A stretch of DNA of 64,000 nucleotides, from contig NZ_JBCAUS010000006.1 in assembly GCF_038432375.1 (NCBI RefSeq), positions 186,001 to 250,000 of the forward strand. Direction: 5' to 3'. Of this stretch, positions 29,246 through 42,318 are shown piece after piece. A model generated the notes under the pieces. It made no database searches. It saw nothing but the letters and a program-made list of their open reading frames with translations, and was not told the DNA's origin. Numbering within the stretch: the stretch's first letter is position 1; each line of letters begins with the position of its first letter. Source of the DNA: Methanococcoides sp. LMO-2 (GTDB lineage: Archaea > Halobacteriota > Methanosarcinia > Methanosarcinales > Methanosarcinaceae). The translations under genes were made by a program, and so were the position numbers.

Positions 29246-30277
29246 ATGTCCGAATACACACAGAAGGAAAGATTAGTCCGCGTATTACAGGGAGAGAAAG
29301 TTGACAGGATGCCAGCTATCTGTGTCACACAGACCGGTACAGTAGACCAGATGGAAGCAATCGATGTTTTCTGGCCAGAAGCAAACTACGATGCTGCACA
29401 GCTTGCTGCACTCTCAGAAGCAGGTCACACAGTTATCGGTTTCGAAGCAATCCGTGTCCCATTCGACATCACCGCAGAAGCAGAGTTCTTCGGCTGTGGC
29501 ATCAAGGACGGTACAAAGGTACAGCAGCCATCCGTCATCAGCCACGTTGTAAACAGCCTTGACGACCTCAAGCCATTTGAAGGATACGATGTCAAAGACA
29601 CAAGCAAGAGAACCTCCATCGTCCTCGAAGCAATCAAGATCCTCAAAGAGAAGTACGGAGAAGAAGTCCCAATCATCGGAAGTATGATCGGTCCTTTCTC
29701 ACTCGCACAGCACATCACCGGTGACTCCTGGTTCATGGACATCATGACAAAGGAAGAGTACGGTCTTGAGATCATGGAATTCGCAACAGACTTCTCCATC
29801 AAGTACGCACTCGCACAGGTAGAAGCTGGAGCAAGCGTATTCTCAATCATTGACCCAACCGCAAGCTACTCACTTATTGGTGCAGACTTCTACGCAAAGT
29901 TCGTAGTACCATTCCACCAGAAGCTCATTGACGCACTCCACGAGAAGGGCGTACCAGCTGTACTCCACATCTGTGGTGACACAACAGAAGGTCTTGCACT
30001 CATGGAGACCTGTGGTGTAGACGCAATCAGTGTTGACCAGAACGTTAACGCAGCAACAGCAATCACCAAGGTAGAGAAAGCACTCATCGTCGGTAACCTC
30101 GACCCAGTCAACTGCCTCTGGAACCAGAGCGTAGATTTCGTCAAGGAAGAATCCGCAAGAGTACTCAAAGAGCTCGACAACAAGGGACTTCTCGCACCTG
30201 GCTGTGGTATCGTAAGCCAGACCCCAACCGAGAACCTCCAGGCAATGATCGAAGCTGCAAAGAACTGGACTTACTAA
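29246..30277 (+). CDS. mtbA: Methylcobamide:CoM methyltransferase, methylamine-specific
   Basis: This 343-residue UroD-fold zinc enzyme transfers the methyl group from the methylamine corrinoid proteins to coenzyme M. Zinc ligands are His241 and Cys243 in LHICGD and Cys320 in APGCG. FGCGIKDGTKVQQPSVI, GSMIGPFSLAQH and DPTASYSLIGADFY match MtbA better than the methanol-specific MtaA. The strict, mostly C-ending codon choice (ATC, CTC, TTC) and strong promoter signals suggest very high expression. Its place after pylD fits, because methylamine methyltransferases upstream in the pathway contain pyrrolysine. Confidence 0.92.
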   Translation: MSEYTQKERLVRVLQGEKVDRMPAICVTQTGTVDQMEAIDVFWPEANYDAAQLAALSEAGHTVIGFEAIRVPFDITAEAEFFGCGIKDGTKVQQPSVISHVVNSLDDLKPFEGYDVKDTSKRTSIVLEAIKILKEKYGEEVPIIGSMIGPFSLAQHITGDSWFMDIMTKEEYGLEIMEFATDFSIKYALAQVEAGASVFSIIDPTASYSLIGADFYAKFVVPFHQKLIDALHEKGVPAVLHICGDTTEGLALMETCGVDAISVDQNVNAATAITKVEKALIVGNLDPVNCLWNQSVDFVKEESARVLKELDNKGLLAPGCGIVSQTPTENLQAMIEAAKNWTY

Positions 30278-30305: not shown

Positions 30306-30599
30306 AATTACTTGAAATTCAAATTAAATTCATTTTTAAACTCTGTTCTGCCCTTAAACCCCTTTTCTCCGGGCACATGCACTATTTGCATTAATTTTAA
30401 CCTGCTACCTTTCATCGCATTCCAGAACAACTTATTCTGAGTATTGAACAACCCACAGGGGCTTAACCAAAGGTTTAGATATTTGAAGATTAAAATGCAC
30501 AAAAGAGATTAAATATATCAAGGTTCTCCATTATCTTTAAATACTTCCTCGTATATGAGCATAATAAATCAAATTTAAAAATTACAAGAGGTTAAAAAG
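30278..30599. other. 322-bp intergenic region between mtbA and the NifX/MinD cluster
   Basis: It holds the mtbA terminator tail, then A/T-rich sequence with no ORF I trust. A TATA-like TTTAAATA near 30536-30543 would start a transcript about 35-40 bases before ATG 30600, which also has an AGAGGT ribosome-binding site. No repeat or RNA gene was recognised. Confidence 0.5.
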
Positions 30600-30977
30600 A
30601 TGAAAGTATGCGTACCTTCTGCAAAAAATGGTGGATTGGAAGATAATGTCGGACAGCACTTTGGAATGGTTCCAAACTATACCGTACTGGATACAGAGAC
30701 AAATGAGGTAATGGTAGTAGAAAATACAAGCCAGCACAACGGCGGCGTTGGTTTGCCACCTGAACTATTATCAAATGCAGGCGTCGACATAATGCTTTGC
30801 GGAGGACTTGGAACAAAAGCTGTCAACATGTTCTCAGAATTCGGGATAGAGGTTTTCGTTGGAGCTCAGGGAACAGTAGAAACTGCTATTTCAGAATGGA
30901 AAGAAGGAAACCTTGCAAGTCCGAACAGTGAGAATGTCTGCCAGGGACATGACCACGACCATGATCACCAGAACTGA
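30600..30977 (+). CDS. NifX/ORP-type (dinitrogenase Fe-Mo cofactor family) protein, copy 1
   Basis: This 125-residue protein has the family layout: MKVCVPSAKNGGLEDNVGQHFG, a beta-alpha RNase H-like core, and GVDIMLCGGLGTKAVNMF. The family includes NifX, NafY and the Mo/Cu-containing orange protein (ORP), all binding metal-sulfur cofactors. The C-terminus adds an unusual His/Asp tail, QGHDHDHDHQN, likely to bind metal ions. It lies 8 bases before the first MinD-like gene and heads the cluster. Confidence 0.85.
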   Translation: MKVCVPSAKNGGLEDNVGQHFGMVPNYTVLDTETNEVMVVENTSQHNGGVGLPPELLSNAGVDIMLCGGLGTKAVNMFSEFGIEVFVGAQGTVETAISEWKEGNLASPNSENVCQGHDHDHDHQN

Positions 30978-30985
30978 ATGATATC

Positions 30986-31843
30986 ATGAAGATCGCAATA
31001 GCAAGCGGAAAAGGAGGAACAGGCAAGACCACCGTAGCGGTGAACCTTTCCCTTTCACTTCAGGATGCACAACTCCTGGACTGTGATGTTGAAGAACCTA
31101 ACTGCAACCTCTTTCTCAAAAGGGAAATGGAGCCGATCACAGAGGTAACAACCGTCATCCCTGAGATCCTGGAAGAGAACTGCACATATTGTAAAAAATG
31201 TTCTGACTTCTGCCGTTTCAATGCAATTGCAACTCTTCCGAACAAGATCATGACATTTCCTGCACTATGCCACAGTTGTGGCGGATGCATGATGGTATGC
31301 CCCGAAGGGGCAATTCAGGAATGCGAGATCGTTACAGGCATAATAAGGAAATCAACAACCAAAGACCAGACCGGTCCGGAACTATACGAAGGACTGCTGG
31401 ATATCGGCCAGACCATGGCATCACCTGTGATCGGGAAGGTGAAAAAATACATCGATCCAACCAGGACAGCTATCATTGATGCACCGCCCGGAACCGCGTG
31501 CCCGGTACTGACCACCCTTGAAGATGTCGACTACTGTATCCTTGTTACTGAGCCTACTCCCTTTGGATTACATGACCTGAAACTGGCGGTCGAGGTTGCC
31601 AGAGTACTCAATATACCACACGGAATACTTATCAACCGAAGTGGAAGTGGCGATGACAGTGTGGAAAAATACTGTGCAGACGAGGGTATCGAAGTCCTTA
31701 TGAAAATACCCCAGGACACAAGGATCGCACGGCTTTACTCGGAGGGAATTCCATTCGTGGAGGAGATGGAAGAGTGGAAAGAGAAGTTCATGCAGCTCTA
31801 CATTTCTATAAAAGACAGATACGGCAGGAGTGAAAAAGCATGA
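30986..31843 (+). CDS. MinD/Mrp-family ATPase with inserted ferredoxin domain, copy 1
   Basis: This 285-residue protein has a deviant Walker A GKGGTGKT (8-15), a signature DCDVEEPN, then two 4Fe-4S ferredoxin motifs inserted at about 60-110 (Cys66, 69, 72, 76 and Cys95, 98, 101, 105), and the ATPase core resuming at IIDAPPGTACPV. COG1149 proteins occur in pairs next to ORP/NifX-like genes in anaerobes. Probable role: ATP-driven assembly or delivery of a metal-sulfur cofactor (inference). It overlaps the next gene by 4 bases (ATGA). Confidence 0.88.
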   Translation: MKIAIASGKGGTGKTTVAVNLSLSLQDAQLLDCDVEEPNCNLFLKREMEPITEVTTVIPEILEENCTYCKKCSDFCRFNAIATLPNKIMTFPALCHSCGGCMMVCPEGAIQECEIVTGIIRKSTTKDQTGPELYEGLLDIGQTMASPVIGKVKKYIDPTRTAIIDAPPGTACPVLTTLEDVDYCILVTEPTPFGLHDLKLAVEVARVLNIPHGILINRSGSGDDSVEKYCADEGIEVLMKIPQDTRIARLYSEGIPFVEEMEEWKEKFMQLYISIKDRYGRSEKA

Positions 31844-32709
31844 AGCAGCTTGTCATAATCAGCGGTAAAGGCGGGACCGGCAAGACAACCATCACTGCAG
31901 GTATTTCATCACTTGCAGAGAACAGTATTATCGCAGACTGTGATGTGGATGCACCTAACCTGCATCTTCTCCTTGAACCAGAGGTCATCGAAACCTTCGA
32001 TTTCCACGGAATGGACATCGCAAATATAGATGATGAGAAATGTTCCGGCTGCAACCTGTGTATCGAGAATTGCAATTTTAATGCGATATTCACGGACCAT
32101 TCCATAAACAGCTGCAAATGCGAAGGTTGCGGGGTCTGCGAATACGTATGCCCTGAGAATGCTATTACAATGATAGACAACCCCTCAGGAACTGTATTCA
32201 GTTCAACTACAAGGTATGGCCCGATGGTGCATGCAGAACTGTTTATCGGAGAAGAAGCAAGCGGTAAACTTGTTACTTCAGTAAAAGAACATGCCCTATC
32301 ACTCGCAAGGGAAAATGACTCCGACCTTGTCATCTACGACGGCCCTCCGGGAACCGGCTGTCCTGTTATAGCCACCATTACCGGTGCTGACCTTGCACTT
32401 ATTGTCACTGAACCAAGTGTATCAGGCATACACGACCTGGAAAGAATAATAAAGGTCACTGACCATTTCGGAATTCCTGCCATCGTCTGCATCAATAAAT
32501 ATAACATAAATGAAGAGAACACAAAGCAGATCGAGATATCATGCGAGGAAAATGGCATTATGGTTGCAGGAAAGCTTCCGTATGACACAATACCTAACAG
32601 GGCGATGATAGGGAAAAAGACCGTCATTGAATATGCGGACAATGAGTTCTCAGATAACCTGAAAAGCATCTGGAGAACTGTGAAAGCAGAACTCGATGCA
32701 ACCTCATGA
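31840..32709 (+). CDS. MinD/Mrp-family ATPase with inserted ferredoxin domain, copy 2
   Basis: This 289-residue partner of the preceding protein has Walker A GKGGTGKT (9-16) and two 4Fe-4S motifs (Cys68, 71, 74, 78 and Cys94, 97, 100, 104). The ATPase motif YDGPPGTGCPV and NKYNINEENTKQIEI, with the nucleotide-base Asn/Lys, follow. The two copies differ enough to suggest a heterodimer rather than recent duplication. Translation is coupled to copy 1. Confidence 0.88.
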   Translation: MKQLVIISGKGGTGKTTITAGISSLAENSIIADCDVDAPNLHLLLEPEVIETFDFHGMDIANIDDEKCSGCNLCIENCNFNAIFTDHSINSCKCEGCGVCEYVCPENAITMIDNPSGTVFSSTTRYGPMVHAELFIGEEASGKLVTSVKEHALSLARENDSDLVIYDGPPGTGCPVIATITGADLALIVTEPSVSGIHDLERIIKVTDHFGIPAIVCINKYNINEENTKQIEISCEENGIMVAGKLPYDTIPNRAMIGKKTVIEYADNEFSDNLKSIWRTVKAELDATS

Positions 32710-32749
32710 TGAAAATGGGATATTTGGTAGTATAAAAGGTGATCAGACA

Positions 32750-33322
32750 ATGAAATGTGCATCCTGCAAAACAAGAAGGTGCAGGGAGGGAAAGGATTGT
32801 ACTCCAAGGGAAGTGCAGCCTGAATATGTTGCAGAAGACCTGGATATGATGAAGGCGGCCTCAAAGATAGAGGCTAATTTCTACATGCAGAGAACAAGGC
32901 TTGAAGAGCTCATCCTTTTTGCAAAGGAAATGGGATACCGCAAACTAGGCGTCGCTTTCTGCCTGGGTCTGGGAGATGAGGCCAGGACCCTCTGCCATAT
33001 ACTTGAGAAAGACTTCATGGTAGAGTCTGTATGCTGCAAGATCTGTGGCGTGGACAAGGAGGAATACGGACTGGACAAGATCAGGGAGGGAAGAGAAACA
33101 ACCTGCAACCCCATTGCTCAGGCAACAATGCTCAACCGGGCGGGAACAGATCTTAACATCATAGTGGGACTATGCATGGGTCATGACATAATGTTCAACA
33201 AATATTCCGAAGCACCTGTTACAACGTTCATTGTAAAGGACAGGGTCCTTGCACACAATCCTGCAGGAGCACTTTATTCCGGATATTACCAGAGGAACCG
33301 TTTCGGAATGGGGAACAAGTGA
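32750..33322 (+). CDS. DUF1847 cysteine-rich protein
   Basis: This 190-residue protein begins MKCASCKTRRCREGKDC (Cys3, 6, 11, 17), a probable metal or Fe-S site. A core with LGVAFCLGLGDEARTL and CCKICGVDKEEYG follows, then GRETTCNPIAQA and VGLCMGHDIMF, matching DUF1847 (putative metal-binding) proteins. Function is unproven. I use ATG 32750 with AAGGTGATC upstream. It overlaps the next gene (TGATG). Confidence 0.8.
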   Translation: MKCASCKTRRCREGKDCTPREVQPEYVAEDLDMMKAASKIEANFYMQRTRLEELILFAKEMGYRKLGVAFCLGLGDEARTLCHILEKDFMVESVCCKICGVDKEEYGLDKIREGRETTCNPIAQATMLNRAGTDLNIIVGLCMGHDIMFNKYSEAPVTTFIVKDRVLAHNPAGALYSGYYQRNRFGMGNK

Positions 33323-33978
33323 TGAAGGTCACCATCGTCTATGATAATGAAGCAAAACCACCTTTCAGGAAAGGGTGGGGATTTTCCTGTTATATTGACA
33401 CCGGGAACAGGAAGATACTTTTTGACACGGGGTGGGATGGCTGTGCTTTAAGGCACAATCTATCGAAGCTGAACATACCTGTCGAGGATATCGATATTCT
33501 CGTGCTTTCCCACCAGCACTGGGACCATATAGGTGGCCTGCCGGTGATATTGAACAGCAGCAAGAGCCTTGAGGTCTTCGTTCCAGCATCCTTTTCAGAG
33601 AAACTTAAAAATGAGATGTCGGTCCATTCTACTTTGCATGAGGTCACCGACAAATGCAGAATATGCAACAACGTCTTTTCTACAGGTGAACTAGGGAACA
33701 ATCCTAAAGAGCAGTCGCTGATGCTGGAAACAGCAAACGGTATTTTCGTGATCACAGGATGTGCACACCCGGGACTGGAAGCCATAATCGGAGCAGCAGC
33801 TTCAGAAGGAGAGGTCTGCGGCATCATTGGGGGCCTGCATGATAGCAGGGAGTATGAACTCCTTGAAGGACTGGAGTTCATAGGTGTCGGACACTGTACA
33901 TCGAACATTGAGACCATCAAAAGCATGTTTCCGGATACTTTTGTACCTATTGAGGCAGGGTACAGCTTTGAGATCTGA
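33322..33978 (+). CDS. Metallo-beta-lactamase fold protein of the cluster
   Basis: This 218-residue MBL-fold hydrolase has the motif SHQHWDH (His64-x-His66-x-Asp68-His69), TGCAHPGLE (third His) and GGLHD. It resembles the archaeal group that includes the dihydropterin ribofuranosyl-aminobenzene phosphate synthase-like proteins. Substrate unknown. The ATG overlaps the DUF1847 stop, so it belongs to the same unit, which points to a role in the same process. Confidence 0.82.
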   Translation: MKVTIVYDNEAKPPFRKGWGFSCYIDTGNRKILFDTGWDGCALRHNLSKLNIPVEDIDILVLSHQHWDHIGGLPVILNSSKSLEVFVPASFSEKLKNEMSVHSTLHEVTDKCRICNNVFSTGELGNNPKEQSLMLETANGIFVITGCAHPGLEAIIGAAASEGEVCGIIGGLHDSREYELLEGLEFIGVGHCTSNIETIKSMFPDTFVPIEAGYSFEI

Positions 33979-34125
33979 ATAGAACTGAAATATCTTGCCA
34001 GATCTTCAGTTGTACCAATTCCATACCTTCAAAACACTACAGGTTCACAGTATATTTTGAACTGCTTTCCATGCAGAAGTATATCAAATAATGAGAACAT
34101 ATTCTTCGCCGGAAAAGGTGAGAAT

Positions 34126-34506
34126 ATGAGAATTGCTATACCCTCCACGGAAAAAGGCGGATTGGAAGATGATGTCGAACTTCATTTTGGAAAGGCTGCT
34201 ACCTACACGATCTATGACAGCGAAACAGAAGAAGTTGAGGTCATGGAGAACACAAGTGTCCATGTGGGTGGAAAAGGATTACCCCACGAACTGCTGGTAA
34301 AGGCCGGAGTGGACGTTGTCCTGTGTTCCGGGGTCGGCCAGAAGATCGTGGACCTTCTGAACAAGAATGATATTGACATATTCATAGGTGCCGATGGCAC
34401 GGTACAGGAAGCCATCGATTCCTGGAAAGCAGGGAAGTTATACAGGCCTAAGAGCATAAACGTGGACAAAGACCAGGGGCTAGGTTTGACACAGCATAGC
34501 CTTTGA
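34126..34506 (+). CDS. NifX/ORP-type protein, copy 2
   Basis: This 126-residue paralogue of the first NifX-like protein has MRIAIPSTEKGGLEDDVELHFGKA, HVGGKGLPHELL and GVDVVLCSGVGQKIVDLL. It lacks the His/Asp tail and ends with a polar stretch instead. ATG 34126 has a clear AAGGTGAGA site. It is separated from the MBL gene by about 150 bp and may have its own promoter, but function is likely shared with the cluster. Confidence 0.84.
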   Translation: MRIAIPSTEKGGLEDDVELHFGKAATYTIYDSETEEVEVMENTSVHVGGKGLPHELLVKAGVDVVLCSGVGQKIVDLLNKNDIDIFIGADGTVQEAIDSWKAGKLYRPKSINVDKDQGLGLTQHSL

Positions 34507-34524: not shown

Positions 34525-35952
34525 TTATTCGTCCATCTTCCCTTTCCCGGAAGATATCCAGGGAAGAGCACACAAAGGACAATCAGGACCGAATCCCGCA
34601 GCATTATAACCGGTCATCCCGCCGGAAACATTGTGCACATCACTGAAGTTGTTCTGTTGCAGGATACTTGCAGCCATACTGGAACGATGTCCGCTTCCGC
34701 AGATCACCAGGGTCTTTGCCTCGGGATCAAGCCCCTTGTAGGAATACCTTACCTCTTCCACAGGGATGTTAATTGCCTTGTCGATATGCCCGGAATCGAA
34801 CTCTGAAGGTGCCCTGACGTCCACAAGAATAAACTCTTCGTCGTCCCTGACCATGTTATCGAGCTCAGGGCTTGATACCTGACATAGATGTTCTGTGGGA
34901 AGACCTGCCATGGCCCATGCATGCATGCCCCCTTCAAGGAATCCGATGACCCTGTCAAGATCTACCCTGTGCAGCCATACTGCTGCTTCGGATGCATGAT
35001 CAGGAGAGTCGGAAACCAGCAGGATGTTCTTATCCGGAGGAAGAAGCCAGCCTGAAAATGTGGCAAAGTTGCTCTTCAGGTCGATGCTGTATGCACCCGG
35101 GATATGGCGTCCACCGAATGCCTCATAGCAGCGGATATCAAGGACAATGGTGCCGGGATCTTCGACCAGTTTGCTGAAATCTGCAGGAGGGATAGCTTTC
35201 AGAGGAGGAAGAACAACAAGCAGTTCAGGCCCCCTTCCGTTGACCTCACTGCAACGGCTGAAATGATCGGGAGCATTAGGCATGTTCTCAGTAAGTGAGT
35301 GAATGAGATCTTCCCGATCACTGATGTTCAGGGCATAATTATAAAGACGCTCATAACCGATAGTGGTACTGCGTTTTGCAGCCATGGACCTTCCACACAG
35401 GGAACCTGCACCGTGTGCAGGATATACCTCACAATGATCAGGCAGTTTCAGCAGTTTTTCGTGCAGGCTTTCATAGAGTTTCGAGGCCAGCTCTTCTGCT
35501 CTTCCCGGGAACAGGTCAGGCCTTCCAACATCGCCTACAAAAAGGGTGTCACCACAGAAGACACATACCGGAACCTCACCACGTGACCTGTCCGTGACAA
35601 CATAGGATACATGCTCCGGTGTGTGTCCCGGGGTTTCCAGAACCTCTATGACCATGTCCTCTATCTCAAATGAATCTCCTTCGGATACCTCCATGGAATC
35701 AAAACTGCAATTCGCAGAGGCCGGGGCCACTATCGTAGCACCGGTCCTTTCCCGGAGTTCTATGTGGCCGGAGATGAAATCCGCATGGAGATGGGTTTCC
35801 AGGACATGGGTGATCTCCCAGCCCATCTCAGATGCAACATCCATGTAGACATCGATGTCACGATCCGGATCAACCACTGCACACGTAGTGTTCCCGCCAA
35901 AAAGGTATGAGCTATGTGCTATTCCGTCTGTAAATATCTGCCTGATGATCAA
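34525..35952 (-). CDS. MBL-fold / rhodanese fusion (persulfide dioxygenase-like)
   Basis: This 475-residue protein has an N-terminal ETHE1-like MBL domain (THLHADFISGH, TPGHTPEHVSY, FCGDTLFVGDVGRPD, YPAHGAGS) followed by two rhodanese domains. The first rhodanese has no active Cys (VSDSPDHAS); the second does (ICGSGHRSS). Such fusions oxidise or transfer persulfide sulfur. I start at TTG 35952, which has a perfect GGAGGT about 7 bases upstream and begins where the family begins; an upstream ATG (35982) would add ten unusual residues. It is convergent with the NifX-like gene. Confidence 0.85.
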   Translation of the reverse strand: MIIRQIFTDGIAHSSYLFGGNTTCAVVDPDRDIDVYMDVASEMGWEITHVLETHLHADFISGHIELRERTGATIVAPASANCSFDSMEVSEGDSFEIEDMVIEVLETPGHTPEHVSYVVTDRSRGEVPVCVFCGDTLFVGDVGRPDLFPGRAEELASKLYESLHEKLLKLPDHCEVYPAHGAGSLCGRSMAAKRSTTIGYERLYNYALNISDREDLIHSLTENMPNAPDHFSRCSEVNGRGPELLVVLPPLKAIPPADFSKLVEDPGTIVLDIRCYEAFGGRHIPGAYSIDLKSNFATFSGWLLPPDKNILLVSDSPDHASEAAVWLHRVDLDRVIGFLEGGMHAWAMAGLPTEHLCQVSSPELDNMVRDDEEFILVDVRAPSEFDSGHIDKAINIPVEEVRYSYKGLDPEAKTLVICGSGHRSSMAASILQQNNFSDVHNVSGGMTGYNAAGFGPDCPLCALPWISSGKGKMDE

Positions 35953-36124
35953 ATATAGGACCTCCCACCCTTTTTGAGCCATAACATAGAGAATATTTAT
36001 GCCGATACTATGATGATGGCAACATCATAAAGACTTCAAAAATACTATAAGGGTTCATGAGATATATATTATTAATATAAAGTGATCGAACACTGAATTC
36101 CTTTACTACTCCGAGGGGTGCATT

Positions 36125-38394: not shown

Positions 38395-38844
38395 ATGGAC
38401 GATATGACAGGACTGGAACTATCGCCAAGGAAGATAGAGTACATAAAATATCTCTTTGAGAAGGGTGACAATGTTCGCACCACTGAGATCTCCGCCCACA
38501 TGGAAGTGGACCCCTCTACCATAACCAAGGCTATTAACGAGCTTGCTTCATCCGGATATGTGAACCATGTCCCGTACAGGGGATTCAGCCTTACGGAAAA
38601 AGGAGAGGAATATGCACACTTCCTTTTGAGAAGGCACCGTATCTTAAGCCTGATGCTGAACCATTACGGCCTCACTGCAGAAGAATCGTGTGCAGAGGTT
38701 GCAAGATTTGAGGCTTATGTATCAAAAAAGGCCATCAACACGATCTGTGACTCTATGGGGCATCCGACCTTCGGGGTTTGTGGCAGGATCGAGCATGACA
38801 GCTGCAACCTCAAACATAACCATCACGAACCCCACGAGGGATGA
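38395..38844 (+). CDS. DtxR-like metal-dependent regulator, variant
   Basis: This 149-residue protein has a winged HTH (about 10-70: VRTTEISAHMEVDPSTITKAINELASSGYV) and a dimer/metal-binding segment. The usual metal-site histidine of the EH motif is replaced (ARFEAYVS), while a Cys (EESCAEV) remains. The end is rich in possible ligands (CGRIEHDSCNLKHNHHEPHEG). Classic members sense Fe or Mn; the ligand here is unclear. It ends 3 bases from the convergent tfuA stop. Confidence 0.78.
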   Translation: MDDMTGLELSPRKIEYIKYLFEKGDNVRTTEISAHMEVDPSTITKAINELASSGYVNHVPYRGFSLTEKGEEYAHFLLRRHRILSLMLNHYGLTAEESCAEVARFEAYVSKKAINTICDSMGHPTFGVCGRIEHDSCNLKHNHHEPHEG

Positions 38845-38847
38845 GCA

Positions 38848-39498
38848 TCATTCCCCTGCTTCCAGTATCTCTTTGACCTTCTTCAGAACAAGAATTGCAT
38901 CTTCCCTTTTTACATCCGATGCATTGTTCCTGCAGTAGCCCAGCAGGGGTTCCGCATCTTCCAGCAGTCCTTCTTCAACTGCTTTTTTTATAATACCAAG
39001 ATAGCTTCTCTGAGGATAATGGATACTTTTTGTTATCGCGATCAGCCCTTTGAAGGTCTCATTATCGATCAGACCCTGCTCAACTGCCTCCCTGAAGGTC
39101 TCCCTGATATTAACAAGCGGTAGTGAGACCTGTTCAAAGGTCTCGGGGTTAGTGGTCACTGCGACCTCGTCATCGGATTCAATGACACCGTCACGGTACC
39201 AGCCATAGACTGTACCCACACCGACCATGCCATGAACATCAAGCTCTGACGCGCGCAATGCGCCCATGCTGCAACCACCTACGACCTTGATGCCTTTTTT
39301 CATTGCGCGGATGATCTCCTTGTGCGCCACTGCAGCCCTGTCAAAGAAAACACCATCGATTATGCCGATCACATCATATCCCTGACCGGCGACCTTATCA
39401 ACATCACCCCTTGCCACCGGTGGCATGTAGGTGACATCGAGGATCTCTTTTGCATCCTCGTGGCTGATGCTGGTACCTGCGAAGACAACCGCTCTCAT
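38848..39498 (-). CDS. tfuA: TfuA-related McrA-glycine thioamidation protein
   Basis: This 216-residue TfuA-family protein has FAGTSISHEDAK, GIIDGVFFDRAAVAHKEI and GGCSMGALRASELD. In Methanosarcina acetivorans the YcaO-TfuA pair installs thioglycine in methyl-CoM reductase alpha subunit; TfuA is thought to deliver sulfur to YcaO. It lies 4 bases downstream of ycaO on the same strand, so the two are coupled. Confidence 0.92.
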   Translation of the reverse strand: MRAVVFAGTSISHEDAKEILDVTYMPPVARGDVDKVAGQGYDVIGIIDGVFFDRAAVAHKEIIRAMKKGIKVVGGCSMGALRASELDVHGMVGVGTVYGWYRDGVIESDDEVAVTTNPETFEQVSLPLVNIRETFREAVEQGLIDNETFKGLIAITKSIHYPQRSYLGIIKKAVEEGLLEDAEPLLGYCRNNASDVKREDAILVLKKVKEILEAGE

Positions 39499-39502
39499 AG
39501 GA

Positions 39503-40783
39503 TCACTTTCGTTTGCCGAACCTTCTCTTCCAGGGTTTCTCGGAAGGAGGGGATTGTTTACGTCCTTTTCTCACCCGATGGCCGACACGCTCACGGTCGA
39601 GGGTATACTGCTCGAATCCCGGAATTATGACCCTCACCACCGGAACGCCTACGTTCTTACGGGAAAGGTCAACCACGATAGCACTATCCGTGACCTTGCG
39701 CAGTTCATCCAGAACAACATCGATGTTCTCTGCAGGAGTTGCACTTGAGATATCATTCAGCTCTCCGGTAGTAACGGTCTCGGAATCTTCATACCAGAAA
39801 CGGTTCATCCTTTTCATGCGTTCATAACCGATCTGCCTGACAAAGCTCTCCCTGTCAGTGTCCTCACGGGCACCGTGTATCTGTACGACCCTTGACTGGG
39901 CAGCCTCGGTGATCGCTCTTCTTATTGCGATCTCCGGATTCAGGTGAGAGCCTGCACCCATCACAAGCAAAGCCGGATCCTTAAGATCAAGATCATCCGT
40001 TGCAGCCACAACAGATGTTATACCTGTATCATGCGGAAGCAGCCAAAGTTTGAGCTGTACCCCATTGGATTCGAACTTCTGCATAAGTTCATAATTTACA
40101 CCGTCATCTTCGGAGAGGAGGATCTGCTTACCCGGGTTCCTGTTGAACTCGGCAGTGCTCAGTGCATCACGCTCAATTACTTCGAGCAAACCGTGCAATA
40201 TTGCCTCCTCTATCACGTTCCCTGATGCAAGACCGTTGGTATTGCTCCTGAAAAGCCTTGCAGACATTCCGGGAGAATCATAAGGGTGATATACCGCGTT
40301 CGAAGGGACATATACCTCCTTTTCGCACAAAAGGTCCCATCCCTGGGTCCACTCCACCAGGCTCTCAGGTGGCAATGGTTCAGCCAGAAGGAGTTTATTG
40401 GGATCTACAAGTTCATGTCCTTCCGAAGCATTTTCAATAGATTCGATGAACTCTTCTGCGGCCACGTCCTCAACGATATCAGCATTAACACCAACACGCT
40501 CTGCAAGGCATCTCTCAAAGCTCTCCATCATGGAAGAGATCCTTGCCTGGCTTTCAGTAGACCCTTTACCTGAATAGATAGAAATAGCACCTTCGGCAGC
40601 TGTTGGCCTAATGGCAGAGAATACCGGGATCCCTATACGGTCCAGGTCGGTGATACTGGCAATCCTTGTGACACCGATCTCTTCCAGGTGTGGTTTTGTG
40701 TTACCAAGGGTTGTCTCCTCATCAAAAACCCTCTGCGTACCATCCATATACTGTAATGATCGATCGATTTGGATATGGGACAT
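39503..40783 (-). CDS. ycaO: YcaO-related McrA-glycine thioamidation protein
   Basis: This 426-residue YcaO enzyme uses ATP to activate a backbone amide for thioamide formation in McrA. Landmarks include IPVFSAIRPTAAEGAISIYSGKG, SQARISSMMESFERC, NTNGLASGN and EAILHGLLEVIERDALS. The C-terminus ends in a basic tail (RKGRKQSPPSEKPWKRRFGKRK). I start at MSHIQIDRS (40783); the frame stays open upstream to 40867 but that stretch is poor coding sequence. A TATA-like TTATATAGG (40850-40858, minus) supports transcription toward it. Confidence 0.9.
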   Translation of the reverse strand: MSHIQIDRSLQYMDGTQRVFDEETTLGNTKPHLEEIGVTRIASITDLDRIGIPVFSAIRPTAAEGAISIYSGKGSTESQARISSMMESFERCLAERVGVNADIVEDVAAEEFIESIENASEGHELVDPNKLLLAEPLPPESLVEWTQGWDLLCEKEVYVPSNAVYHPYDSPGMSARLFRSNTNGLASGNVIEEAILHGLLEVIERDALSTAEFNRNPGKQILLSEDDGVNYELMQKFESNGVQLKLWLLPHDTGITSVVAATDDLDLKDPALLVMGAGSHLNPEIAIRRAITEAAQSRVVQIHGAREDTDRESFVRQIGYERMKRMNRFWYEDSETVTTGELNDISSATPAENIDVVLDELRKVTDSAIVVDLSRKNVGVPVVRVIIPGFEQYTLDRERVGHRVRKGRKQSPPSEKPWKRRFGKRK

Positions 40784-40860
40784 GTTTATCGGAAGTCCTT
40801 TGCAACTTATAACCCTTACGACAAAATCCAGACAGATTTGTCCGAAAACCCTATATAAGA

Positions 40861-40882
40861 TAAACACGTAAGAAAGTGTTTA
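40861..40882. promoter_or_regulatory. Inverted repeat in the ycaO / small-ORF divergent promoter region
   Basis: TAAACAC (40861-40867) and GTGTTTA (40876-40882) are a perfect 7-bp inverted repeat with an 8-base spacer. It lies just upstream of the ycaO TATA-like element and between two divergent units, a fitting place for a regulator site. The protein that would bind it is unknown. Confidence 0.4.
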
Positions 40883-40940
40883 AGCTATCTCCGGAGGCTT
40901 AGTTTTTACAAAATCAAATTGAAGAGACAGGAGGAAACAG

Positions 40941-41096
40941 ATGATGAGAAATATCACGAAAATAAGTGATAAATACGGAAGGCGTGAAGAAGACGGGACA
41001 TACCATTCGGTTGTAAGTGGGCAAACTACTGAAAAACTGGACACTGAGGAGATGGAACTTTACAAGTTCATGCTCGGTGGAATGCTGGCGAAATAA
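40941..41096 (+). CDS. Small 51-residue protein upstream of cysteine desulfurase
   Basis: Too short for usual ORF cut-offs. It reads MMRNITKISDKYGRREEDG..., with a second half LDTEEMELYKFMLGGMLAK. A strong ACAGGAGGAAACAG ribosome-binding site stands right before the start (ATG 40941 or 40944), which argues that it is translated. No cysteine, no membrane segment. The next gene, a cysteine desulfurase, begins 43 bases later on the same strand. I do not recognise the family. Confidence 0.65.
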   Translation: MMRNITKISDKYGRREEDGTYHSVVSGQTTEKLDTEEMELYKFMLGGMLAK

Positions 41097-41139
41097 CGCC
41101 TGCAAAACATATTTTTAGATATCTTGCGTAAGGAAGGTT

Positions 41140-42318
41140 ATGTTTGACATTCATTCCGTACGCAAAGATTTTCCCGTCCTTGATGAAGTGATCTATCTGG
41201 ACAATGGCGCTACAACACAAACGCCTGTCCCGGCAGTCAATGCCATGAACGATTACTTCCTCAAATACGCAGCAAATCATGGTAGAGGAGCTCACAGGCT
41301 CGCCCGACAGACCACTGATAATTATGAGGATTCAAGGGACAGGATCGCAGAGTTCCTGAACACTGCACCTGAGAGCACCATACTGACAAAGAATGCAACT
41401 GAAAGTATCAACATGGTTGCCCTTGGCCTTCAGTGGGAAGCAGGAGATCATGTTGTCACAACTCTTGTGGAGCACCACTCCAACCTGCTCCCGTGGATGA
41501 GGCTAAGAGAGATGGGTGTAGAGGTCACCATCGTCGGAACTTACAATGAAGGATGTGTAGACCCGAAAGAAGTTGATGCTGCAATTACCGACAGGACAAA
41601 GCTGGTCTCTGTCAACCACGTATCCAACGTCTTCGGATCCATAAGGGATGTTGGAAAGATAACAAAGATAGCACAGAAGAGCGGAGCAATGGTCCTTGTG
41701 GACGGTTCACAGTCTGCAGGCCACATGACCGTTGACGTCAAAAAGATAGGGTGCGATTTCTTTGCCACCCCCGGACACAAGGGAATGCTGGGACCACAGG
41801 GAACAGGAATCCTCTGCATCAAAGACCCTGATGTCCTTGAACCCACCTATGTTGGCGGCGGGACCGTCCATGCTGTTACCACAGAAAGTTATGAGCTGGA
41901 ACCTTCCCCATCAAAGTTCGAGGCCGGCACTCCGAACATCCCTGGAGTCATCGGACTTGGCAGGGCTGTTGAGTACGTGCAGGAGATCGGTGTGGAAGAT
42001 ATAGAGAAACATGAGAAAGAGCTGTCTTCATATGCTGCAAAACGACTTGCAGAGATCGAAGGCGTGGAGGTCTACGGACCTGAGGACAGGGCAGGCGTGG
42101 TTCCGTTCAATGTGGAAGGCATGAACCCGCATGACGTTGCCATGATACTGGACGAGACCAGGAAGATCTGTGTCCGAAGCGGATACCACTGTGCTATGCC
42201 TTCAGTGGACATGCTGGGAGTTGAGGGAACTGTGCGAGCATCCTTTGCCCTGTACAATACAGAAGAAGAAGTTGAGTCACTTGTTGAAGGTGTCGAGCAG
42301 ATAACAATGCTCGCATGA
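41140..42318 (+). CDS. sufS: SufS-type cysteine desulfurase
   Basis: This 392-residue PLP enzyme takes sulfur from cysteine and holds it as a persulfide. The PLP lysine is Lys214 in PGHKGMLGPQGTG, the active-site Cys351 is in RSGYHCAMP, and YLDNGATTQTP starts the protein. It is closest to the SufS/CsdA class. Methanogens often use sulfide directly, so the role may be Fe-S assembly, tRNA thiolation or supply to other sulfur transfers. It is divergent from ycaO-tfuA and follows the 51-residue ORF. Confidence 0.9.
   Translation: MFDIHSVRKDFPVLDEVIYLDNGATTQTPVPAVNAMNDYFLKYAANHGRGAHRLARQTTDNYEDSRDRIAEFLNTAPESTILTKNATESINMVALGLQWEAGDHVVTTLVEHHSNLLPWMRLREMGVEVTIVGTYNEGCVDPKEVDAAITDRTKLVSVNHVSNVFGSIRDVGKITKIAQKSGAMVLVDGSQSAGHMTVDVKKIGCDFFATPGHKGMLGPQGTGILCIKDPDVLEPTYVGGGTVHAVTTESYELEPSPSKFEAGTPNIPGVIGLGRAVEYVQEIGVEDIEKHEKELSSYAAKRLAEIEGVEVYGPEDRAGVVPFNVEGMNPHDVAMILDETRKICVRSGYHCAMPSVDMLGVEGTVRASFALYNTEEEVESLVEGVEQITMLA

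Follow-up and report, generated by a model that had tools for sequence, protein, structure and literature searches.

Six adjacent genes of Methanococcoides sp. LMO-2 were found to be part of a gene set of anaerobes that is ancient, widely conserved and hardly studied so far. The most likely task of this set is to assemble, carry or sense metal-sulfur clusters. The genes lie at positions 30600-34506 of the window, i.e., the whole analyzed stretch of 64,000 nucleotides (contig NZ_JBCAUS010000006.1, positions 186,001 to 250,000). A preliminary description, made from the sequence alone, had proposed two NifX-type proteins, two ferredoxin-MinD ATPases, a DUF1847 protein and an MBL protein in a row. 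The six open reading frames and their Pfam matches were recovered at this place with the families as first named:

NifX1, 30600..30977, forward strand: 125 amino acids, isoelectric point (pI) of 4.46 (~4.5); PF02579 at 3.5e-19; Cys/His-tail class; C-terminal end ...ENVCQGHDHDHDHQN.
MinD1, 30986..31843, forward strand: P-loop ATPase of the CbiA/ParA fold (Pfam) with a deviant Walker A motif and an inserted 2x[4Fe-4S] ferredoxin.
MinD2, 31840..32709, forward strand: paralogue of MinD1, about 32% identical and with the same motifs; CbiA/ParA fold (Pfam), two Fer4 sites.
DUF1847 protein, 32750..33322, forward strand: 190 amino acids, 11 Cys; PF08901 at 4.3e-53.
MBL-fold hydrolase, 33322..33978, forward strand: PF00753 at 7.9e-12; SHQHWDH motif; COG1237-like.
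NifX2, 34126..34506, forward strand: 126 amino acids, pI of 4.75; PF02579 at 5.1e-19; Cys/His-tail class, metal tail lost.

The overlaps first described as ATGA and TGATG were present between MinD1 and MinD2 (4 bp) and between DUF1847 and MBL (1 bp), respectively, and the gaps amounted to 8 bp (NifX1-MinD1), 40 bp (MinD2-DUF1847) and 147 bp (MBL-NifX2). NifX2 probably starts at ATG 34126 and not at TTG 34057. Pfam placed two Fer4 sites in each MinD protein, in agreement with the two 4Fe-4S sites initially assigned to each. Among the matches on genome contigs, the closest named relative of the DUF1847 protein was from Methanococcoides.

DUF1847 was present in 109 of the 393 genomes searched in the phylum, and gene neighborhoods were compared for the 112 DUF1847 loci of at least 8 kb. 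NifX occurred in 46 of these loci, and NifX plus ferredoxin-MinD in 39. At about four NifX genes per genome, a NifX gene would be expected by chance within 10 kb of a given locus in about 3.5% of cases. The proximity of NifX and DUF1847 exceeds chance, a formal p value being indicative only since related loci are not independent. The co-occurrence of NifX, paired ferredoxin-MinD proteins and DUF1847 was borne out in archaea and in anaerobic bacteria. The 39 clusters were found in Methanosarcinaceae, two further families of the same phylum, Methanocellales, Hadesarchaea and Thermoplasmatota among the archaea, and in a Syntrophomonadaceae bacterium, Phycisphaerae and a Deferribacteres metagenome-assembled genome (MAG) among the bacteria; many of these loci are MAG contigs, which may have been misbinned in individual instances, but the pattern recurs nonetheless. 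Recurrent partners were DUF134, Mrp/Nbp35, DUF5320, DUF169, a COG0731-type radical SAM protein, an ARMT1-like (DUF89) protein and DtxR-family regulators (21/39 clusters). In relatives, the siroheme reductase Fsr lies within or adjoining the cluster, and in Methanohalophilus an EncFtn-like protein adjoins the MBL gene.

The set is the core of the orange protein (ORP) cluster of sulfate reducers in an enlarged form. Both contain a pair of MinD-type paralogues (Orp3/Orp4), each with two ferredoxin motifs, and a NifX-fold partner; relatives of the window cluster also share the linkage to Mrp and DUF134. The first characterization of the window cluster as compact is misleading: other lineages have a longer set, and the remaining members are scattered here over other loci of the same genome, among them:

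Second locus, G000:C2:374563-378400 (L156:9064-12900): NifX of the ORP/IssA class, Fsr-like protein (642 amino acids) and a CDF cation transporter-NifX fusion.

This locus is flanked by two DUF169 genes, and its ORP/IssA-class NifX has a Gly/Arg-rich tail, a pI of 9.0 and the ORP structure 2wfb as best match (1.7e-20). At L184, which lies upstream of the window on its contig, Mrp and DUF134 are neighbors, and DUF134 occurs with a COG0731-type radical SAM protein at another locus (G000:C3:141527-142043; L185:9528-10043). Since Methanohalophilus carries the ORP-class NifX, the Cys/His NifX, Fsr, the MinD pair, DUF1847 and MBL in one row, the set was probably split in the lineage of the window. 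Two side observations were made elsewhere in the genome. The C-terminal end of the L185 DUF134 protein resembles the start of DUF5320 (GKDGTGPMGQGP), Pfam having found DUF134 only, and a match to NIR_SIR (nitrite/sulfite reductase) with one in-frame TGA lies at G000:C7:79919-80335.

In 16 MinD1/MinD2 sequences, the GKGGTGKTT motif, the eight ferredoxin Cys (C66, C69, C72, C76 and C95, C98, C101, C105 in the MinD1 insert) and the switch-II Cys172 were invariant, with C for the second T of GTG in one MinD2 as the sole exception in GKGGTGKTT. Both the deviant Walker A motif and the switch-II Cys of NifH-like cluster ATPases are present. NifH, CooC and Mrp/Nbp35 are likewise P-loop ATPases with a deviant Walker A motif; they bind metal clusters or transfer them, and NifH shares the switch-II Cys. 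MinD1 and MinD2 differ from these by their two-[4Fe-4S] ferredoxin insert after the P-loop and by being paired paralogues.

The NifX proteins fall into two classes. In a tree of 84 NifX domains, whose deep forks are poorly resolved, both window proteins stood apart from the class of D. gigas ORP and IssA-like proteins and grouped with archaeal relatives (support 98/91), with PH0822 and TM1816 nearby. Exactly one NifX with a C-x2-H tail, usually in the form N-x-C-x2-H-x-H, was found in 34 of the 39 clusters. NifX1 carries this tail in the window; NifX2, a genus-restricted branch (support 100/100) inside the Cys/His-tail class, has lost it and ends in ...GLGLTQHSL. An alternative tail, GxGxTxHxL, is kept across the genus copies of NifX2.

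In DUF1847, the conserved residues comprise C3, C6, C11 and C17 at the N-terminus and C71, C96, C119, C142, H145 and D146 in the core. These Cys were kept in at least 90% of 63 sequences, and C71, C96 and C119 were present in all 63. In the AlphaFold2 model (predicted local distance difference test score, pLDDT, of 94.7), C71 and C96 come immediately after core strands, C142 shortly after a third and C119 lies before a helix, and the invariant Cys are predicted to converge in space. Foldseek returned no match for this model at E <= 0.001, while VIA-align gave Z up to 9.4 with common alpha/beta domains, including Dph2, racemases and solute-binding proteins, and excluded no family. No solved structure was found among the sequence relatives of DUF1847, and the literature searches returned no mention of DUF1847 and nothing on COG1149, COG1433, COG1342 or COG4887. 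The nearest solved structure of the MBL protein was 7dck (3.2e-35), followed by 3h3e and 2p4z. At the Methanolobus-type loci L041 and L086, DUF1847-MBL occurs with CbiX-like chelatases, DUF169 and Fsr and without the MinD pair.

With a probability of about 50%, the cluster encodes an ATP-dependent module of anaerobic metabolism whose task is to build, carry or pass on iron-sulfur (or other metal-sulfur) clusters in the service of iron/sulfur homeostasis. Gene content, conservation, motifs, a separate promoter-like element and the dispersal of the other members in the genome are observations. The metal-sulfur module is suggested by the co-clustering, the invariant MinD motifs, the presence of one C-x2-H NifX in most clusters and the placement of the DUF1847 Cys. 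The iron/sulfur role is suggested by the linked genes (Fsr, Mrp/Nbp35, DUF134, the CDF-NifX fusion, DtxR and the EncFtn-like protein) and by genes near the cluster in the window (TfuA/YcaO, a SufS-family desulfurase and an MBL-rhodanese protein). In such a module, MinD1 and MinD2 would form a heterodimeric NifH-like ATPase; the four ferredoxin clusters of the pair would bring in electrons, and Cys172 of each subunit may hold or pass a cluster at the ATP-dependent interface, with transfer presumably driven by ATP. DUF1847 may act as Cys-rich scaffold or sensor with sites at the N-terminus and at the C-terminal edge of the beta sheet. NifX1 would be a soluble carrier, its C-x2-H-x-H tail being the putative dock for a metal or cluster, with NifX2 as duplicate lacking the Cys/His tail and the MBL protein as accessory hydrolase. 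The clients may include siroheme/[4Fe-4S] enzymes such as Fsr.

MrpORP of D. vulgaris transfers Fe-S clusters to Orp3-Orp4-Orp8 proteins in vitro (PMC6345978), and FsrII is an F420H2-dependent nitrite reductase in vitro (PMC9295563). The NifX-domain, IssA-like proteins Mvol_0689 and Mvol_0693 of M. voltae were more abundant on pyrite (PMC8516115, PMC9431491). Three Methanococcus-type genomes showed the order NifX-MinD1-MinD2-x-NifX, with the same three-gene gap as between Mvol_0689 and Mvol_0693, and the M. voltae pair is probably part of a related locus of this kind. The protein between MinD2 and the second NifX in Methanococcus had no Pfam match. The pyrite proteomics support the module indirectly.

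Several points weigh against this reading. The proposed correspondence with the M. voltae locus is drawn from gene order and spacing. The text of the M. barkeri pyrite transcriptome study names FeoAB and others, and no NifX, MinD or IssA. The His-rich tail would suit Ni, Zn, Cu or Co no less than Fe. DUF1847 occurred without NifX in 66 of the 112 loci and thus has a life outside the module, and no MBL gene was found near the Methanosarcina-type clusters in the comparison of DUF1847 loci.

A more specific proposal, which is tentative, sees the set as an assembly line dedicated to a metal-sulfur cofactor not described so far, which would differ from the Mo-Cu cluster of ORP and from FeMo-co. This cofactor would be built on DUF1847 with MinD1/MinD2, be carried by the C-x2-H-x-H NifX class and, in methanogens as in other anaerobes, serve an enzyme of the siroheme or Fe-S type.

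It is rather unlikely that the cluster serves the homeostasis of trace metals (Ni/Co/Zn/Cu), with the Cys/His NifX as metallochaperone or sensor of a non-iron metal and the MinD pair loading metal into enzymes, similar to CooC-type ATPases for nickel. The His-rich C-x2-H tails, the fusion protein of NifX and a CDF cation exporter encoded by this genome and the CobW-type and CbiX-like chelatase genes near DUF1847-MBL in genus g5 would be consistent with this function. However, siroheme/Fe-S and iron-regulator neighbors are commoner, and the eight ferredoxin Cys per MinD protein indicate redox Fe-S chemistry.

The early label of an ORP-like set is apt for the paired ferredoxin-MinD proteins and the NifX fold, which fit the handling of metal-sulfur clusters, but it does not extend to the NifX class. 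A true archaeal ORP complex with the non-covalently bound Mo-Cu-S cluster of the Desulfovibrio orange protein would share these core families, and Mrp and DUF134 are encoded elsewhere in the genome. In contrast, NifX1 matched 2wfb weakly (6.4e-6, last of six hits) compared with the NifX of the second locus, and the tree separates the two classes; the ORP-class NifX (Orp8) sits at the second locus and is neither NifX1 nor NifX2. Unlike the ORP complex, the window cluster contains no ORP-class NifX, no MrpORP (an Mrp-NifX fusion), no Mrp gene and no DUF134, and adds DUF1847 and MBL. The Mo-Cu cluster and the role in cell division are without evidence here, and identity with the ORP complex is considered improbable.

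Storage of thioferrate as by IssA of Pyrococcus furiosus, in which the NifX proteins would nucleate iron-sulfide nanoparticles, is likewise hardly probable. NifX1 and NifX2 share the domain of IssA and of the M. voltae IssA-like proteins (IPR003731; PF02579), and these Methanococcus relatives are the ones more abundant on pyrite (PMC8516115). Members of IssA are described by a high pI and a Gly-rich tail (PMC5524996), but NifX1 and NifX2 are acidic and lack a Gly-rich cationic C-terminal tail, one of them having a Cys/His tail instead, and the Gly/Arg-tailed NifX sits at the second locus.

Two conserved elements stand upstream of NifX genes of the cluster:

Promoter-like element of NifX1, 30535..30566, forward strand: TATA-like CTTTAAATA, then CTTCCTCGTATATGAGCATAATA.
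Conserved GTATATCAAA upstream of NifX2, 34079..34088, forward strand: candidate promoter of its own.

The NifX1 element (CTTTAAATACTTCxTCGTATATGAGCATAATA, with few substitutions) was found in the window and, among seven further Methanococcoides-like genomes in the alignment, in five; the remainder of the mtbA-NifX1 spacer is variable. Upstream of NifX2, the core GTATATCA was kept in 8/8 Methanococcoides-like sequences aligned and the full GTATATCAAA string in six, and the latter is possibly NifX2's own promoter. The gene at 29246-30277 was confirmed as mtbA (MtbA with 603.9 bits, cut-off 600) and is preceded by pyl genes; it lies upstream of the cluster as first described, but not directly, since it ends 322 bp before NifX1. 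This location would be consistent with maturation or activation of methylamine:corrinoid methyltransferases. However, the only genera in which pyl-mtbA adjoins the cluster are its own and Methanohalophilus (genus g3); in other Methanosarcinaceae genera it lies away from pyl/mtbA. PylS exceeded the cut-off in 2 of the 12 cluster-bearing genomes tested, both Methanosarcinaceae, and was not detectable in ten, several of which are incomplete MAGs, so that single absences are weak. Because of this distribution, the promoter-like element directly upstream of NifX1 and the variable neighbors, the methylamine or corrinoid role was rejected as highly improbable. The methylamine genes look like incidental neighbors, linked by position only.

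A role in the traffic of nitrogenase FeMo-cofactor or NifB-co, suggested by the fold shared with the NifX/NafY/NifB cofactor carriers and by a NifB homologue above the cut-off (371 bits, G000:C3:311292-312113, L186), was rejected as very unlikely, since a single partial Oxidored_nitro (PF00148) match indicates that the genome has no nifDKEN set, and, among 15 cluster-bearing genomes, NifB exceeded the cut-off in no more than five and was undetected in another five. Queuosine/archaeosine-type genes lie near this NifB homologue.

Further genes follow the cluster. A gene on the reverse strand (34525-35982) encodes an MBL domain with two rhodanese domains, resembles persulfide dioxygenase-rhodanese enzymes and adjoins NifX2 in most Methanococcoides-like genomes compared. 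Just downstream (38395-42318), a DtxR-family regulator, TfuA and YcaO (McrA thioamidation) and a SufS-family cysteine desulfurase are encoded, with a similar gene order in Methanohalophilus.

The cluster is a real, conserved and unstudied variant within an ORP-related kind of metal-sulfur module of anaerobes. The demand of methanogens for iron and sulfur is very high, and the assembly and traffic of their Fe-S clusters are poorly known. Families that appeared scattered, i.e., DUF1847, DUF134, DUF169, DUF5320, COG1149-type MinD, two NifX classes, Fsr and the CDF-NifX fusion, are brought together as one recurring system. The C-x2-H tail of NifX is its recognizable mark, and the system can be tested in a relative that is amenable to genetics (Methanosarcina or Methanococcus).

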